A stretch of 46,764 bases of DNA, taken from contig JAUZRG010000091.1 in assembly GCA_030950585.1 (NCBI GenBank), forward strand, positions 1-46,764, written 5' to 3'. Below, in pieces: positions 1-9,288 of the stretch (its first letter is position 1; every line of letters begins with the position of its first letter). The stretch is from Mariprofundaceae bacterium (GTDB lineage: Bacteria > Pseudomonadota > Zetaproteobacteria > Mariprofundales > Mariprofundaceae). The position numbers and the translations under genes were made by a program. The notes beneath the pieces were generated by a model, which made no database searches, was not told where the DNA came from, and worked only from the letters and a program-made list of their open reading frames with translations.

Positions 1-12
1 TCCCAATTACTC

Positions 13-262
13 GGGGCGGCGAACTTTAGCTTCGCCTCAGAGAATGTCAACACTTTCGTTTCGACTTCCTCTACCTGCTGATCTGATCTGCGTTAGCATT
101 TCATTTCTGCGGGAGGCGAACTCTACGTTCGTCTCAGAGAAGTGTCAACACTTTCGTTTTAACTCTCTGCCTGCTAAATAGTGAAGATTTGTTAATCTCA
201 CAACTCAGCGGGACGCGAACTTTAATAACTTAAAAACTTTTGTCAACACTTTATTTTAACAG
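13..262. repeat. Tandem ~98-bp degenerate repeat array, three copies
   Basis: Three successive units share a block GCGGG..GCGAACT, a variable middle, then GTCAACACTTT. The (G/C)GCGAACT block occurs at 18-25, 115-122 and 214-221. GTCAACACTTT occurs at 46-56, 144-154 and 242-252, exactly 98 bp apart. The linkers are also alike: CTCTaCCTGCT after copy 1 and CTCTgCCTGCT after copy 2. Copies 1 and 2 can fold a hairpin (18-23 with 31-36; 113-120 with 128-135, one G-T pair); copy 3 cannot. A weaker GTCAACATTAATTT at 345-358 may be a fourth, decayed copy. The array may continue left of the window. Function unknown. Confidence 0.8.
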
Positions 263-511
263 CCTTAACAAAGAACCCTTCATATAAGCCTATATATACT
301 CAAGGCATATGAAGCTTAGCAAATAACAACCTATATAATAGATAGTCAACATTAATTTAAAGAAACGCCAATATAAGCATAAAGCCCTATTTCAATCTTG
401 ACAAAATCACATATACAGATATCATTTTGCTCTCAATTCCTTCTAGGTATCAGCTTACAAAGCTAAGTCATGACACCTTCCTTATCCTTACCTTCACTCT
501 TTGGAGTATCC
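263..511 (+). promoter_or_regulatory. AT-rich leader upstream of rho
   Basis: This stretch links the repeat array to rho and holds no convincing gene. It is AT-rich, with several TATATA-type runs around 288-300 and 332-342. The clearest elements are the promoter at 398-425 and a Shine-Dalgarno GGAG at 503-506. A five-codon ATG reading frame starts at 309, but I see no reason to call it a gene. I saw no clear intrinsic terminator, so any attenuation of rho here would have to be Rho-dependent, which cannot be judged by eye. Confidence 0.4.
398..425 (+). promoter_or_regulatory. Candidate sigma-70 promoter of rho
   Basis: A perfect -35 TTGACA at 398-403 is followed, after 16 bp, by TATCAT at 420-425 (five of six matches to TATAAT). 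The expected transcription start near 432 leaves a leader of about 80 nt before the rho start at 512. Confidence 0.55.
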
Positions 512-2431
512 ATGCCATCCTCTACCGAGGCTTTAGCTAAAGCTGACTTACAAGATAAAAAAAATGCCCTTAAGTCAACAGAAATTGACTTAAAAGCAAC
601 AAAAGATGCAACAGAAGTCTTAAAAAAGAAGCCTGTACGTCGTAAAAGAAGAACAAAAGCGGAAATGGAAGCTGCTAAAGCATTAAAAGAAATGCAGAAG
701 AACGAAACTTCAGACTCTAAACCAATTAAAAAAAACAAAATAAATGAAGAGAAGAAACCTTTAGAAAGTAAAGATAAAAAGAACGAAACATCAGTACCAC
801 CCCTACCTTCTCAAAAAAGCAAACCAACATTAAGCCTAAAACAACAAGAACTTGAAAAAAAACCTTTAAAAACCGAAAAAACGATAGAAGAAAAACAACA
901 ACTGCATAGCAAAGAAGATAATAAAAACCACTATAAACGTGGACAAAAGCAAAAAATTGAAAATAAAACCTACCAACCAACGGATAAAGTTGAAAAAACT
1001 GTAGAAGGTAGCATCACCACAACAGATGATGAGCATAAATCAGACAAAAAGAATCGCCCTCAACCACAACGAGGAAGACGCAATAACAATAACAATAACA
1101 ATAACAATAACAATAACAATAACCGTCGAAGAAAAGTAGAAGAAGACACCGTTACTTCACATGAAGCTAAAGGTGAACAGATGCACTTACGTGAAGTTGC
1201 ATCTCTTCATCCTAAGGCAATATTAGACCTTGCAGAGTCCGTTAATATTGAAAATGCATCTAGCATGCGTAAAGCAGAGCAAGTATTTGCTATCCTAAAA
1301 GCACATGCTGCGCGTGGCGGCACACTATATAGTGAAGGTGTTTTAGAAGTATTACCTGATGGCTTTGGATTTTTACGCTCACCTGAAGCCAATTATATGA
1401 CTGGCCCTGATGATGTTTACGTTTCTAATCATCAAATTCGTCGCTTTAGCTTACGCAAAGGAGACACTATTGCAGGTGAGATTCGTTCACCACGCTCTAG
1501 CGAACGTTACTTTGCTCTAAAAGCCATTGATACCATTAATAATCATGAACCTCGCGAAGCCAAAACCAAGGTTTTATTTGATAACTTGACCCCACTTTAC
1601 CCAGATGAACGCTTTCATATGGAGGTTAAAGGCTCCAAGGACCTTACTGGCCGTGTCATTGACTTGGTTGCACCCATCGGAAAAGGCCAACGTGGGTTAC
1701 TTGTTGCTCCACCACGGACTGGCAAAACAGTCATGATGCAATCCATTGCTCACTCTATCGAAGCAAATCATCCTGATTCCACCTTAATGGTTTTATTAAT
1801 TGATGAACGCCCAGAAGAAGTTACCGACATGAAAAGGTCAGTGAAAGGTGAGGTTGTTGCCTCTACTTTTGACGAACCCGCACAACACCATGTCCAAGTA
1901 GCTGAAATGGTTATCGAAAAAGCAAAACGTTTAGTCGAACATGGCGAAGATGTGATTGTACTTCTTGACTCTATCACCCGACTCGCTCGCGCCTACAACA
2001 CAGTATCCCCTTCATCAGGAAAGATTTTATCAGGTGGTGTTGACTCCAATGCTCTGCATCGTCCCAAGCGTTTTTTTGGTGCTGCTCGTAATATCGAAGA
2101 TGGTGGCAGCTTAACCATTATTGCCACTGCACTTATCGATACAGGAAGCCGTATGGATGAAGTTATTTTTGAAGAATTCAAAGGCACGGGTAATATGGAA
2201 ATTCACTTGAGTCGGAAACTCATGGATAAACGTGTATTTCCTGCAATTGACATGGCTCCTTCTGGCACGCGTAAAGAAGAGCTTCTATTAGAACAAACAG
2301 ACATGGCAAAAGTTTGGGTGTTACGTCGCATCTTATCCCCAATGGGAACCGCTGATTCTATGGAGTTTTTACTTGAAAAACTTCGTCAACATCCAACCAA
2401 CGATGATTTTTTCTTAGGAATGAACCAATAA
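512..2431 (+). CDS. rho: Transcription termination factor Rho with long basic N-terminal extension
   Basis: Hexameric RNA-dependent ATPase that terminates untranslated transcripts. From residue ~224 the protein follows canonical Rho: RHO_N helix bundle, cold-shock RNA-binding domain ([15 protein letters not shown]), then the RecA-like ATPase with Walker A APPRTGKT near residues 399-406, [11 protein letters not shown], and Walker [17 protein letters not shown]. Before it lies a ~220-residue Lys/Glu/Asn-rich, probably disordered extension holding 14 consecutive Asn. I chose the ATG at 512 (639 aa) because GGAG at 503-506 sits 5 nt upstream; an in-frame ATG at 470 has no ribosome site. An internal ATG at 1181, preceded by AAAGGTG at 1169-1175, would give a classical 416-aa Rho. 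It is followed after 11 nt by the next gene. Confidence 0.97.
1082..1123 (+). repeat. In-frame hexanucleotide microsatellite (AATAAC)x7 in rho
   Basis: Seven perfect copies of AATAAC encode 14 Asn residues (191-204 from the start at 512). The unit is six bases, so slippage would change the length by two Asn without breaking the frame. It lies in the disordered extension, not in the catalytic core. Confidence 0.95.
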
Positions 2432-3312: not shown

Positions 3313-3621
3313 TTAAGCATCAACATCTATTTGCACCATACCTGATGCAGTGCGCACAGCGTACACTTCAATATCTTCATAAGCAGGTGGTGTAAGAGCC
3401 TTTCCACTACGCAAACAAAAATGCGCTCCATGAAACGGGCAGACCCATGCTCCATCTTCAACACAACCTTCATCCATCTGAATATGGTCATGGCTACAAC
3501 GGTTTTCAATCGCATAGAAACCTGTTTCAAGGTGTAATATTAAAATATCTTCAAAATCAGTTGCGTATAACTTCTTTGCACCGAGAGGAAAATCAACCTC
3601 AGCAACCACATCAACCCACAT
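3313..3621 (-). CDS. Rieske-type [2Fe-2S] ferredoxin, last gene of suf operon
   Basis: A soluble 102-residue protein with a complete Rieske cluster site: C42-S-H44 (RCSHDHIQM) and C61-P-F-H64 (VCPFHGAHF), 16 residues apart. It has no signal peptide or membrane anchor, so it resembles the small ferredoxin components of non-heme oxygenase systems rather than a bc1 Rieske subunit. Its ATG overlaps the sufT stop by one base (TAATG), implying translational coupling. Position at the end of the suf operon suggests either an electron donor in Fe-S assembly or a client; this is inference. No oxygenase gene is adjacent. Confidence 0.88.
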   Translation of the reverse strand: MWVDVVAEVDFPLGAKKLYATDFEDILILHLETGFYAIENRCSHDHIQMDEGCVEDGAWVCPFHGAHFCLRSGKALTPPAYEDIEVYAVRTASGMVQIDVDA

Positions 3622-4160
3622 TAAAACATGCCTAATTCAAGCTGAGCGGCATCACTCATCATATGCTTATTCCATTCGGGTTCAAACACAAGTTCAATAT
3701 CAACTTCTTTGACTTGTGGTAATTGCTTTAATTTATAACGAACATCGTCAACAATAAAAGGCCCCATACCACAACCTGCCGCTGTTAATGTCATAATAAT
3801 ATCAACACCATAGCCACCTTCATCTAAATCCACGACATGAATATCGTAAATTAAACCAAGATCAAAAATATTCACAGGAATTTCAGGGTCAAAACATGTT
3901 TTTAATACTGTTGTGACCTGAGCTTCATCCAATGGATCATCTGCACACATATCAGAATGCAGCTCGGGCTGAGCCAACCCCAAGGCTGGAAAATTCTCAC
4001 CACTCACACTCACCATATTACCATTCACATTTAGAGTCATACTGCCACCCAACTCTTGAACCACCATTGCTTGCGTTCCAGCGGGTAGTTGCACAGGTGT
4101 TCCCATTGGAACATGGCTAGCTGGGCAGTCTGCAATCACATGAATAAGATCACCTTTCAT
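3621..4160 (-). CDS. sufT: SufT, Fe-S cluster assembly protein (MIP18/DUF59 family)
   Basis: A 179-residue protein with a C-terminal DUF59/MIP18 domain: the segment from VTTVLKTCFDPEIPVNIFDLGLIYDI to IMTLTAAGCGMGP is the family hallmark. The N-terminal ~90 residues form the extra domain seen in the long SufT type. SufT is an auxiliary maturation factor thought to help pass clusters to apoproteins. The ATG directly follows the sufU stop with no spacer, and the stop overlaps the Rieske start, so it sits firmly in the suf transcription unit. Confidence 0.92.
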   Translation of the reverse strand: MKGDLIHVIADCPASHVPMGTPVQLPAGTQAMVVQELGGSMTLNVNGNMVSVSGENFPALGLAQPELHSDMCADDPLDEAQVTTVLKTCFDPEIPVNIFDLGLIYDIHVVDLDEGGYGVDIIMTLTAAGCGMGPFIVDDVRYKLKQLPQVKEVDIELVFEPEWNKHMMSDAAQLELGMF

Positions 4161-4619
4161 TTATTCAGTCCTCGCTGCATCTTGATCACCACTTAATGCT
4201 GCTTGCACTGTATGCCAACATAAAATGGCACACTTAATGCGAGAGGGAAATTCACGCACCCCTGCCAATGCTGCAAGCTTTCCTAAGTGTGAAAAATCTT
4301 GTTCTTCTGTTATATCTGATGTCACCATCTGTTGAAAACTTTCAAATAAAACTTTGGCTTCATCGACTGTTTTTCCTGTCATTGTCTCTGTCATCAATGA
4401 TGCAGATGCAATAGAAATGGCACAGCCTGTACCTTTAAAACTGATATCTTGTACTAAGTGATGTTCATTAACTTTCAAGTAAACATGTAATTGATCACCA
4501 CATAATGGATTGTAACCATCAGCATCATGGCTACAGCTTTCTATTTCCCGAAAATTTCGAGGATGTTTATTATGATCCACAATCACTTGCTGGTATAAAT
4601 CTTTTAAATCAAAAAACAT
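4161..4619 (-). CDS. sufU: SufU, sulfur acceptor/scaffold (IscU family)
   Basis: The 152-residue protein has the metal/sulfur ligands of the IscU fold: C40 and D42 (NPLCGD), C66 (GTGCAIS) and C130 (RIKCAILCWH). The extra ~20 residues between C66 and C130 relative to IscU mark it as SufU. In characterised systems SufU binds zinc and takes persulfide sulfur from SufS. Here it lies directly downstream of sufS with a one-base overlap, matching that partnership. No SufE or SufA gene is seen in the window. Confidence 0.93.
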   Translation of the reverse strand: MFFDLKDLYQQVIVDHNKHPRNFREIESCSHDADGYNPLCGDQLHVYLKVNEHHLVQDISFKGTGCAISIASASLMTETMTGKTVDEAKVLFESFQQMVTSDITEEQDFSHLGKLAALAGVREFPSRIKCAILCWHTVQAALSGDQDAARTE

Positions 4620-5839
4620 TAGCTAAACATCTCCTGTGCATAAGCAAGCGCAGCAAACAAACGATCTATTTCTTCTGTTGTGTTATAAAAAGCAAAAGAA
4701 GCACGTGTCGTGGCAGCAATATCAAAATATTGCATCACAGGCATCGCGCAGTGATGGCCTGCACGCACAGCAACACCACAACGATCAAGAATTGTTCCTA
4801 AATCATGAGGGTGAATATCGGACATGACAAAGGATAAGATACTTGCCTTGTCTTTTGCCTGACCAATGACTTTTAAGCCAGCAACTTGCCGTGCCTTATT
4901 CGTTGCGTATGCCAGTAGATCATGTTCATGAGCAGCAATATAATTTAAGCCAATATCATTGAGGTAATCAATAGCCGCACCCCAAGCAATTGCTCCTGCA
5001 ATATTGGGTGTACCAGCTTCAAATTTATAAGGCGCTTGGCTATACGTGCTACCAGAAAAACTCACCGTGCGAATCATATCGCCACCACCATGCCAAGGTG
5101 GCATCTCAGCCAGCAACTCAGCTTTGGCATACAAAGCACCCACACCTGTTGGCCCAAACATCTTATGCGCAGACATCACATAAAAATCGACATCTAAATC
5201 AACCACATCCACAGTCATATGCGCAGTAGCCTGTGCGCCATCGACCAACACAGGCACACCTAAAGCATGTGCTTTTTCAATCATTTCTTTGACAGGATTA
5301 ACGGTTCCCAAGGCATTTGATAAATGCCCAATAGCAAGCAAAGCTGTGTTTTTATTAAGCAATTCAACGAATTTATCTTGAATTAACTCACCGTGTTCAT
5401 TCATCGGAATAACTTTTAATGTCGCACCCGTTTGTTCACATAACATCTGCCAAGGCACAATATTAGAGTGGTGCTCCATCATACTCACCAATATTTCATC
5501 ACCAGCTGAAATATTTTTACGCCCATACGTTTGTGCAACTAGGTTAATCGCTTCCGTTGCCCCACGCACAAAGATAATTTCTTTTTCACTGCTAGCATGA
5601 ATATAAGCACCGATCTTCTGACGTGCAGCTTCATATTTTGCAGTTGCTCGCTCAGAAAGCGTGTGCACACCACGGTGAATATTGGCGTTATCGTATTCAT
5701 AGTAATGGGTTAAAGCATCAATCACACACTGTGGCTTTTGTGTTGTCGCTGCATTATCTAAATAAACAAGAGGGTAGCCGTGAACCTGCTGATTTAAAAC
5801 AGGAAAATCTTTCCTAATTGTATCAACATTAAAAGCCAT
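4619..5839 (-). CDS. sufS: SufS cysteine desulfurase
   Basis: A PLP enzyme of 406 residues that converts cysteine to alanine and delivers the sulfur as a persulfide. The PLP lysine is K226 in SAHKMFGPTG and the catalytic cysteine is C364 in RAGHHCAMPV, the same positions as in E. coli SufS. HHSNIVPW and GTPNIAG are typical of class II NifS-like desulfurases. It overlaps sufD by one base upstream and sufU by one base downstream. Sulfur probably passes to SufU and then to the SufBCD scaffold. Confidence 0.97.
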   Translation of the reverse strand: MAFNVDTIRKDFPVLNQQVHGYPLVYLDNAATTQKPQCVIDALTHYYEYDNANIHRGVHTLSERATAKYEAARQKIGAYIHASSEKEIIFVRGATEAINLVAQTYGRKNISAGDEILVSMMEHHSNIVPWQMLCEQTGATLKVIPMNEHGELIQDKFVELLNKNTALLAIGHLSNALGTVNPVKEMIEKAHALGVPVLVDGAQATAHMTVDVVDLDVDFYVMSAHKMFGPTGVGALYAKAELLAEMPPWHGGGDMIRTVSFSGSTYSQAPYKFEAGTPNIAGAIAWGAAIDYLNDIGLNYIAAHEHDLLAYATNKARQVAGLKVIGQAKDKASILSFVMSDIHPHDLGTILDRCGVAVRAGHHCAMPVMQYFDIAATTRASFAFYNTTEEIDRLFAALAYAQEMFS

Positions 5840-7074
5840 TAACTCATCTCCTGCAACTCAGAAGATAACTCATCACCTGGTAAGATCTGCAATAAACGTT
5901 GGCGTGCATGCTCTTGTAACACAGGATCAGTCATGTGATTTAATAACTCTGCAGCAAAGGAAAAGGTTAAAATTTTCTTTGCTTGTTCCTCACTTAAGCC
6001 ACGCGATCTTAAATAAAACAATTGATTATCATCAATTTGACCCACAGTAGCACCATGAGAACAACTCACATCATCTGCATAAATCTCAAGCTCAGGCTTG
6101 GTATCTATTTCAGATTTCTTTGATAATAATAAATTACGATTTTGTTGATGAGCCTCTGTTTTTTGTGCATAAGGATGCACAACGACTTTACCATTAAAGA
6201 CAGCACGCGAACGATCCATCAAAATACCTTTATAGTATTCATGGCTTTCACAGTTAGGTACACGGTGGTGCACTGTTGTATGATAATCCATATGTTGACG
6301 AGACTGTGTTAAATACAAACCATTTAAAGTACAGCTTGCTTCTTCGCCCTGCAATTCCACCACAATATCCGTGCGTGCCATTGCAGCACCCAAACCAATA
6401 GCATGGGAAAAAAACTGACTTTTCTCTTGTTGTGTCACAGTCATCAAGTGACGGTATAACGCCTTGTTTTGTAAATACTGTAAACTGTAATGTTGTAAAA
6501 CAGCATTTCTTCCTAACTTAACATGACTTTGATGATTAACAAAACTACGCACATTTGGCATGCCAATATGCATATCAACCACTTCAGCATGCACACCCTC
6601 TGCTAAAACAAGACGACTTTGCGTATAATTACCCACATCTGGAGAAGCACTAATGAAAAGGCAGTGAATCGCTTTTTCCACAGAGGCCGACAAAACCACA
6701 TCAAGAGCTGCTGTGCATAAAGCAACATTCAAAGCCTCAATGCCATCTCTTAAATGATCGGTGTCTTGAAAAACAGAGGGAACGACTTGAAGACCCACAG
6801 GCAAATCATCAGATAATTCAGGCTTAAAAAAACCATCCACAAAAACCAATCTAGTCGCATCACAACTTGGTAAACAAAATTGATTTAAATCAATAGATTT
6901 TTTTTGCATTGCCACAGGAAAAACATGACGTTTTAAAACTCTGAAATCTGTATAGCGCCAGTCTTCTTGAGAGGTGTCTGGAATACCCAACGAGCCAAAG
7001 GATACTAATGCCTCTTTGCGCCACATATCTTGTTGGCCGTGTTGATCAAAATATTGTTGATATTGTTCTTTCAT
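5839..7074 (-). CDS. sufD: SufD, component of the SufBCD scaffold
   Basis: This 411-residue protein has the variable helical N-terminus and the conserved beta-helix core of the SufB/SufD family. The C-terminal signature is intact: TKPELEIYADDVSCSHGATVGQ followed by FYLRSRGLSEEQA. SufD pairs with SufB and a SufC dimer to build nascent clusters. The start overlaps the sufC stop by 4 bp (7071-7074) and the stop meets sufS by one base. SufD is generally the most divergent Suf subunit, and it is so here. Confidence 0.94.
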   Translation of the reverse strand: MKEQYQQYFDQHGQQDMWRKEALVSFGSLGIPDTSQEDWRYTDFRVLKRHVFPVAMQKKSIDLNQFCLPSCDATRLVFVDGFFKPELSDDLPVGLQVVPSVFQDTDHLRDGIEALNVALCTAALDVVLSASVEKAIHCLFISASPDVGNYTQSRLVLAEGVHAEVVDMHIGMPNVRSFVNHQSHVKLGRNAVLQHYSLQYLQNKALYRHLMTVTQQEKSQFFSHAIGLGAAMARTDIVVELQGEEASCTLNGLYLTQSRQHMDYHTTVHHRVPNCESHEYYKGILMDRSRAVFNGKVVVHPYAQKTEAHQQNRNLLLSKKSEIDTKPELEIYADDVSCSHGATVGQIDDNQLFYLRSRGLSEEQAKKILTFSFAAELLNHMTDPVLQEHARQRLLQILPGDELSSELQEMS

Positions 7075-7814
7075 GCAGCACTAACCCAATCATAACCACG
7101 ACTTTCCAATTCTTTAGCCAAATCTTTGTCTCCAGATAGCTGGATCTTTCCATCTGCCAAGACATGCACCACATCAGGGATTATATAATCTAATAGACGC
7201 TGATAATGCGTGACCATAATCATTGAACGGTCAGGCTGACGCAATTGATTCACACCATGAGCAACTGCTTTCAACGCATCAATATCTAAACCTGAATCGG
7301 TTTCATCCAAAATAGCTAAATAGGGTTCTAACATCGCCATTTGAAAAATTTCATTGCGTTTTTTCTCACCACCAGAAAAACCTTCATTTACACCACGGCG
7401 CATCAAATCTTTCTTGATCGCAATAATCTCTAGTTTTTCCTTCATCAAGGCCATGAAGTCCATCGCATCGACTTCTGGCTGCTGACGGTGACGGCGAATT
7501 GCATTTAAGCTTTCACGTAAAAAATAAGCATTATTGACACCTGGAATTTCAACAGGGTATTGAAAAGCTAAGAAAACCCCTTCGCATGCTTTTTCTTCTG
7601 TGGACATGGCCAATAAGTCTTTACCCTTATAGACCACACTTCCTTGGGTAATCTCATAACCAGGCCGACCTGATAAAACATGTGATAATGTGCTTTTACC
7701 TGAACCATTTGGTCCCATAATGGCATGCACTTCACCTGCTCGCACATGCATATCAATGCCTTTAAGGATTTTCTTTCCGTCTACTTCGACATGTAAGTTT
7801 TTAATTTCTAACAT
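7071..7814 (-). CDS. sufC: SufC, ATPase of the SufBCD complex
   Basis: ABC-type ATPase of 247 residues. Walker A is GPNGSGKST (residues 34-42), the ABC signature is FSGGEKKRNEI, and Walker B with the catalytic Glu is LAILDETDSGLD. It drives SufBCD conformational change and is cytosolic rather than a transporter. I place the start at 7814 (MLEIKNLHVEV), which has AGG six bases upstream and agrees with family length. The reading frame stays open upstream to 7952, but that part overlaps sufB and has no homology. Confidence 0.96.
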   Translation of the reverse strand: MLEIKNLHVEVDGKKILKGIDMHVRAGEVHAIMGPNGSGKSTLSHVLSGRPGYEITQGSVVYKGKDLLAMSTEEKACEGVFLAFQYPVEIPGVNNAYFLRESLNAIRRHRQQPEVDAMDFMALMKEKLEIIAIKKDLMRRGVNEGFSGGEKKRNEIFQMAMLEPYLAILDETDSGLDIDALKAVAHGVNQLRQPDRSMIMVTHYQRLLDYIIPDVVHVLADGKIQLSGDKDLAKELESRGYDWVSAA

Positions 7815-7848
7815 GAGAACCTGCACCTTTTGATATAACTTAAAACCA

Positions 7849-9288
7849 TCATCCAACCGCACCTTCAAGACTAACAGCCAATAGCTTCCCAGCTTCAACT
7901 GCAAACTCCATGGGCAATTCAGCAAAGACTTCTTTACAAAATCCATTAACAATCATGGATACAGCGTCTTCTTCTGATAGACCTCGCTGCATACAATAAA
8001 ACAATTGATCTTCACTAATGCGTGATGTTGTTGCTTCATGCTCCAATGTCGCACTTGCATTTTTCACTTCAATATAAGGAAAAGTATGTGCGCCACATTG
8101 ATCACCCAAAAGCATCGAGTCACACTGCGTATAATTCCTTGCATTATCAGCACTTGCGGCAATTTTCACTAAACCACGATATGCATTAGACGCATGTCCT
8201 GCTGAAATGCCTTTACTTAAAATAGTGCTCCGTGTGTTTTTTCCCAAGTGAATCATTTTTGTACCTGTATCTGCTTGCTGATAATTATTTGTTAGAGCGA
8301 CTGAGTAAAACTCACCCACTGAATGATCACCACGTAAAATACAACTAGGGTACTTCCATGTAATTGCAGACCCTGTTTCAACTTGCGTCCAAGAAATACG
8401 AGCGCGATCACCTAAACAATCACCTCGTTTAGTCACAAAATTATAAATGCCACCCACGCCATTTTCATCACCTGGATACCAGTTTTGCACGGTGGAATAT
8501 TTAATACTTGCATCATCCAATGCGACCAACTCAACCACCGCAGCATGCAATTGATTTTCATCGCGCATGGGAGCCGTGCAACCTTCAAGGTAACTCACGG
8601 TCGAAGCTTCATCAGCAATAATCAATGTTCGTTCAAACTGACCTGTGTTTAACGCATTAATCCGAAAGTAAGTGGAAAGCTCCATTGGGCAGCGAACCCC
8701 TTTTGGAATATACACAAAGGATCCATCTGAAAAAACGGCTGAATTTAAGGCTGCAAAGAAGTTATCCGTTGTTGGCACTACTGAACCTAAATATTTTTGA
8801 ATCAATTCAGGATGTGTTTGCACAGCCTCTGAAAAAGGACAAAACACAACACCTACTTTAGAAAGCTTATCCTTAAATGTTGTGGCCACTGAAACAGAGT
8901 CAAATACGGCATCAACAGCGACCCCAGCCAAAGCAGCTCTTTCATGCAGTGGTATACCTAGTTTTTCATAGGTTTCTAATAACTTAGGATCAACTTCATC
9001 CAAACTTTTAGGCCCATCCTTATTGGACTTTGGTGCCGAGTAATAAGAAATACTATCGTAGGGGATAGGTTCAATATTTAATTTTGCCCAATCAGGCTCA
9101 GCCATAGCCAGCCAATGCTTGTATGCCTTTAAACGCCACTTTAATAAAAACTCAGGCTCATTTTTCTTTTGTGAAATAACACGAATCACATCCTCATTTA
9201 AACCTGGAGGGATAGTATCCGTATCAATTTCAGTGACAAAACCATGTTCATATTCTTTTTGAACAAACTGATCAATCTCTGAACTCAT
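7849..9288 (-). CDS. sufB: SufB, core scaffold of the SufBCD complex
   Basis: A 479-residue protein with the full SufB pattern: the N-terminal segment around WRLKAYKHW, the motif [16 protein letters not shown], and the C-terminal [17 protein letters not shown], which carries the cysteine implicated in cluster assembly. [20 protein letters not shown] follows. SufB receives sulfur and builds the cluster with SufD. Its ATG overlaps the sufR stop by 4 bp (9285-9288). A 34-bp gap separates it from sufC, the widest within the operon. Confidence 0.97.

Follow-up and report, generated by a model that had tools for sequence, protein, structure and literature searches.

What is the tandem repeat that fills the first bases of this contig, upstream of the gene for transcription termination factor Rho (rho), in a Mariprofundaceae bacterium, a relative of iron oxidisers, and on which strand should it be read? 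The window (the whole stretch of 46,764 nucleotides analysed here) starts at base 1 of contig C204 in an assembly of 2.5 Mb and 212 contigs. The motif GTCAACACTTT occurs at 46, 144 and 242, with spacings of 98 and 98 bp, and a flanking block of the GGGCGGCGAACTTTA type (GGG-GCGAACTTTA) at 14, 111 and 210, with spacings of 97 and 99 bp. When nt 1-300 were matched against themselves at offsets of 60-150, the best score was 23; 500 dinucleotide shuffles scored 8.4 on average and 16 at most. The 98-bp array is therefore real and far above chance, and the regular spacing and matching flanks described in the first-pass annotation, which was made from the sequence alone, are both present. It had also described the copies as growing less alike toward rho, in agreement with our comparison: copies 1 and 2 are the closest pair, and copy 3 is the one nearest rho. 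We conclude that nt 1-262 almost certainly represent three tandem rRNA operon (rrn) promoters, P1-P3, located on the minus strand and divergent from rho.

The strand used in the earlier reading was the wrong one. Read on the minus strand, the repeat copies each show the anatomy of a sigma-70 promoter: reverse-complementing GTCAACACTTT gives AAAGTGTTGAC, and this contains most of the -35 box TTGACA, and every unit runs from an A-tract through TTGACA, a spacer of 16-17 bp and TAAAGT or TAGAGT to a GC-rich discriminator, TCGC(C/G)(G/T)CCC, that is present in all three window promoters. A promoter scan of the minus strand recovered three TTGACA-16/17-TA(A/G)AGT sites whose positions match those of the three repeats (10 of 12 consensus bases in the boxes of each of P1, P2 and P3), and three such sites occurred together in none of 2000 shuffles. 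All three predicted promoters face left, with rho behind them and the contig end at nt 1 ahead. The A-tracts occupy the place expected of a proximal UP element. The features of the locus are:

219..246, minus strand: predicted rrn promoter P1 (first transcribed, nearest rho), with -35 TTGACA at 246-241, a 16-bp spacer and -10 TAAAGT at 224-219, then TCGCGTCCC
120..148, minus strand: predicted rrn promoter P2, with -35 TTGACA at 148-143, a 17-bp spacer and -10 TAGAGT at 125-120, then TCGCCTCCC
23..50, minus strand: predicted rrn promoter P3 (nearest the contig end), with -35 TTGACA at 50-45, a 16-bp spacer and -10 TAAAGT at 28-23, then TCGCCGCCC
14..22, minus strand: GC-rich discriminator of P3, TCGCCGCCC, conserved position by position in relatives
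119-111 and 218-210, minus strand: equivalent discriminators of P2 and P1
51..60, minus strand: A-tract directly upstream of the P3 -35 box, AACGAAAGTG, with A positions conserved in relatives
149-158 and 247-256, minus strand: equivalent A-tracts of P2 and P1
17..38, minus strand: imperfect dyad GGCGAA..TTCGCC, the hairpin of the first-pass annotation, straddling the P3 -10 box
1..299, minus strand: block in common with the start of contig C160 (99% identity), the probable promoter region of a second rrn operon
1..1, no strand: contig end, beyond which a 16S gene (not in this genome's assembly) would lie
398..425, plus strand: probable rho promoter, TTGACA-16-TATCAT, divergent from the rrn promoters
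470..2431, plus strand: rho, divergent neighbour of the rrn promoters (position 511 is an alternative start, since GGAG directly precedes it)

A near-identical copy of the array exists in the same genome: nt 1-300 recur, 99% identical, at the very start of contig C160; the match breaks off at about nt 299, and beyond it the two sequences are wholly different. On C160, the gene upstream of the promoter block is tyrS, in the same direction as the promoters. The site at 345, which had been proposed as a possible fourth remnant, was rejected as a further unit; it lies outside the block common to both rrn loci and has no matching -10 box or discriminator. Within the block, the window carries an extra G at 142 relative to C160 (L002), which gives P2 its 17-bp spacer, whereas the sister P2 has one of 16 bp; this base may be a real mutation, a strain mixture or an assembly error. 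Both contigs stop at the same base, and no 16S, 23S or 5S rRNA gene was found in the assembly of this genome. Absent rRNA genes and broken contigs are what draft assemblies usually show where identical rRNA operons have been collapsed. We infer that the neighbouring 16S gene, which the assembly lacks, lies directly beyond nt 1.

Relatives place the same promoters before 16S. In genomes of the family, 16S genes have two to four promoters of this form directly upstream. We scanned 84,980 genomes with the pattern TTGACR-N16-TAWWGT-TCGCCGCCC and obtained 47 stretches. Of these, 46 come from Zetaproteobacteria-type records, Mariprofundus and Ghiorsea among them (two records bearing just the title Proteobacteria were counted in for their like sequence and layout), and one from a Verrucomicrobiales MAG. 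The latter, the sole match outside the lineage (L028), is a single site with no 16S nearby and is about what chance would give, since by our own estimate approximately one match is expected for a pattern of about 39 bits in 257 billion bases. The start of 16S was seen in 17 of the 46 lineage loci, 204-309 nt past the last promoter, and the contigs of the other 29 break off short of where it could start; all 17 loci long enough to show 16S thus have it, and none of the 46 contradicts the arrangement. Rfam confirmed the longer 16S stretches among these loci. Neighbouring promoters are 86-158 bp apart (median 104), mostly in two to four copies, and in most loci a boxA-like word, TGTTCTTTAC or TGCTCTTTAC, stands between the last promoter and 16S. 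In about 20 loci tyrS lies upstream of the promoters, as in the sister copy on C160. Two of the Zetaproteobacterial contigs with rrn promoters also carry SAH riboswitches (RF01057; L020:2947-3028 and L026:586-661).

Among 104 distinct promoters compared, 103 have a 16-bp spacer, the exception being P2 of the window. In these 103, TTGAC, TA...T, the discriminator and an A-rich run upstream of the -35 box are constant, and the spacer and remaining linker are variable. The constancy of several positions, including most of the discriminator, is partly built in, as the search pattern demanded them; the A-run and the G/C positions beside the -10 box were not demanded. When nt 1-460 were used as a DNA query against 60 relatives, one short extra match was all that came up, because conservation is confined to the promoter cores; the promoters of relatives were reached by searching backwards from 16S. 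The first-pass annotation had recorded an impression of GCGGGA-GCGAA/GTCAACA blocks near housekeeping genes of other proteobacteria, and this fits: the blocks are the reverse complements of rrn promoters across the Zetaproteobacteria. With copies so widespread before 16S and tRNA genes, the array is not the neutral local duplication that it would have been taken for if no copies existed elsewhere. No paper dedicated to Zetaproteobacterial rrn promoters was found in the open-licence literature.

The same promoter type also stands before tRNA genes in this genome, which we searched with TTGACA-N16-TAAAGTTCGC, allowing up to three mismatches. Outside the two rrn arrays there are three places with one mismatch, each followed after 11-21 nt by a co-directional tRNA gene (tRNA-Glu, tRNA-Val and tRNA-Lys), and six with two mismatches, half of which lie 7-10 nt before tRNA-Met, tRNA-Gly and tRNA-Asn. 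With up to three mismatches the total was 41 matches versus 29 control matches, and most of the three-mismatch places are probably due to chance. On contigs C14, C65, C140, C40, C141 and C179, we observed tRNA genes behind rrn-like promoters with differing discriminators (TTCGG, TTCGC, TTCGA). Such tRNA promoters could possibly form a genome-wide class of stable-RNA promoters.

The hairpin in copies 1 and 2 had suggested selection at the RNA level, with the repeats acting as tandem small RNAs or structured leaders transcribed on the plus strand toward rho. Stable plus-strand hairpins do form in these copies (-11.8 and -13.5 kcal/mol; z -1.97 and -2.75), and copy 3 has indeed lost its hairpin (-2.1 kcal/mol), as had been noticed, but it keeps the promoter. 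The hairpin spans the end of the spacer, the -10 box and the discriminator, and between copies 1 and 2 there is no compensatory change in the stem: the arm GGCGAA is identical and the other arm is altered on one side only. On the minus (transcribed) strand, an A-C mismatch interrupts the stem of copy 2, and no stem forms in copy 3. In standard promoter geometry, transcription starts about 6-9 nt past the -10 box, and because of this the promoter's own transcript would exclude most of the hairpin. Rfam gave no match at the gathering score, its weak matches being confined to the rho coding region, and thus no credible RNA family. The parts that stay constant across relatives are the -35 box, the -10 box and the discriminator, and it is 16S and tRNA genes, rather than rho, that follow the elements. 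We therefore regard small RNAs or leaders as very unlikely. A related idea is that a conserved GGCG..CGCC dyad flanking the -10 box acts as a separate control element in Zetaproteobacterial rrn promoters, for example through extrusion or resistance to melting under supercoiling, or as the site of an unknown regulator. A partial dyad (at least 5 of 6 matches) occurs in 16 of 52 non-redundant promoters of relatives, where 3.4 are expected and 1000 shuffles reach at most 10; a direct, non-complementary match, however, likewise reaches 10 of 52, and because of this a general GC-rich preference beside the -10 box is the simpler reading. The dyad as a control element seems improbable to us.

Two further explanations accept the repeats as DNA elements and assign them another role. 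The array could be a duplicated fragment of rrn promoters, now dead, with no rRNA operon behind it, as no 16S is assembled alongside and relatives have no rrn beside rho. Near-consensus boxes are nevertheless kept in all three promoters, the two copies end at the same base, as an assembly break at a collapsed repeat would produce, and the contigs of 29 relatives break in the same region. Moreover, the genome must have at least one rRNA gene, yet none is assembled anywhere even though completeness is 99%. Dead promoters are accordingly a highly improbable explanation. Alternatively, the repeats might regulate rho, e.g., as repressor sites or parts of an attenuator; they do lie upstream of it, 208 bp or more before the first rho ATG. 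However, rho has its own likely plus-strand promoter at 398-425, the near-identical block on C160 has no rho, and rrn promoters were found near rho in none of the 29 rho loci of relatives. Sites for the control of rho are, in our judgement, extremely unlikely, and rho is only a neighbour of the array, not its target. Among the genomes sampled, only this one has rho beside these promoters; the rho location has no synteny support from the sampled relatives, whereas the tyrS copy has such support. Rho itself has a long low-complexity N-terminal extension rich in Lys/Glu and Asn (window 470-1150), with an Asn run coded by (AATAAC)n at about 1081-1123. Elsewhere in the window, a minus-strand cluster at 3313-9288, named by eye from the translations, resembles SUF iron-sulfur cluster assembly genes (SufB-, SufC-, SufD-, SufS-like, SufU/IscU-like and SufT-like proteins and a Rieske-type ferredoxin).

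With the array read as three rrn promoters, the housekeeping sigma-70 RNA polymerase would bind each unit through the A-tract, TTGACA, the short spacer and the -10 box. The idea that the repeats are protein-binding sites holds in this broad sense, as RNA polymerase holoenzyme binds promoters. The first-pass interpretation as a whole is partly supported. The GC-rich discriminator would make the open complexes short-lived and thus sensitive to ppGpp and DksA, and promoters in series would send more polymerase through the rrn leader (boxA) into 16S-23S-5S; activity of the three promoters and an additive output are both probable on this reading. E. coli rrnB P1 has a 16-bp spacer, and boxA is found in the leader. 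Repression by ppGpp/DksA is known to go with a GC-rich discriminator and a short spacer, as in E. coli rrn (PMC4696680), and dksA and two genes with RelA/SpoT domains are present in this genome. Growth-rate control and ppGpp/DksA (stringent) control of P1-P3 would be expected.

Tandem rrn promoters are an ordinary and well-known kind of arrangement. E. coli rrn P1/P2 are tandem sigma-70 promoters before 16S with AT-rich upstream sequence and a GC-rich discriminator (PMC4696680), and the window promoters resemble them in the tandem layout, the upstream sequence and the discriminator, in the predicted place before 16S, and in the 16-bp spacer of P1 and P3. In E. coli, however, there are two promoters that differ in regulation, whereas the window has three near-copies at steps of about 98 bp, which clearly arose by duplication. 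Mycobacterial rrnA has promoters in series as well (two in M. tuberculosis, five in M. chelonae), and mycobacterial rrnB lies downstream of tyrS (PMC10218544), as does the sister copy on C160. The lineage and the promoter sequences are unrelated, though, and the common tyrS neighbourhood is probably a coincidence. The closest likeness is to the Zetaproteobacterial rrn loci (L005-L063; Mariprofundus, Ghiorsea and others), which have the same -35 box, 16-bp spacer, -10 box and TCGCCGCCC, mostly two to four copies at steps of 86-158 bp, boxA and 16S; they differ in that none of those examined adjoins rho and that copy number and spacing vary.

The repeat is thus explained and its strand corrected, and nothing established is overturned. 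The two visible rRNA operon fronts of this genome are now placed, one divergent from rho and the other downstream of tyrS. Across the Zetaproteobacteria, a compact signature of stable-RNA promoters holds, which helps to locate missing rRNA operons in draft genomes of this group and to pick strong native promoters for genetics in these bacteria.
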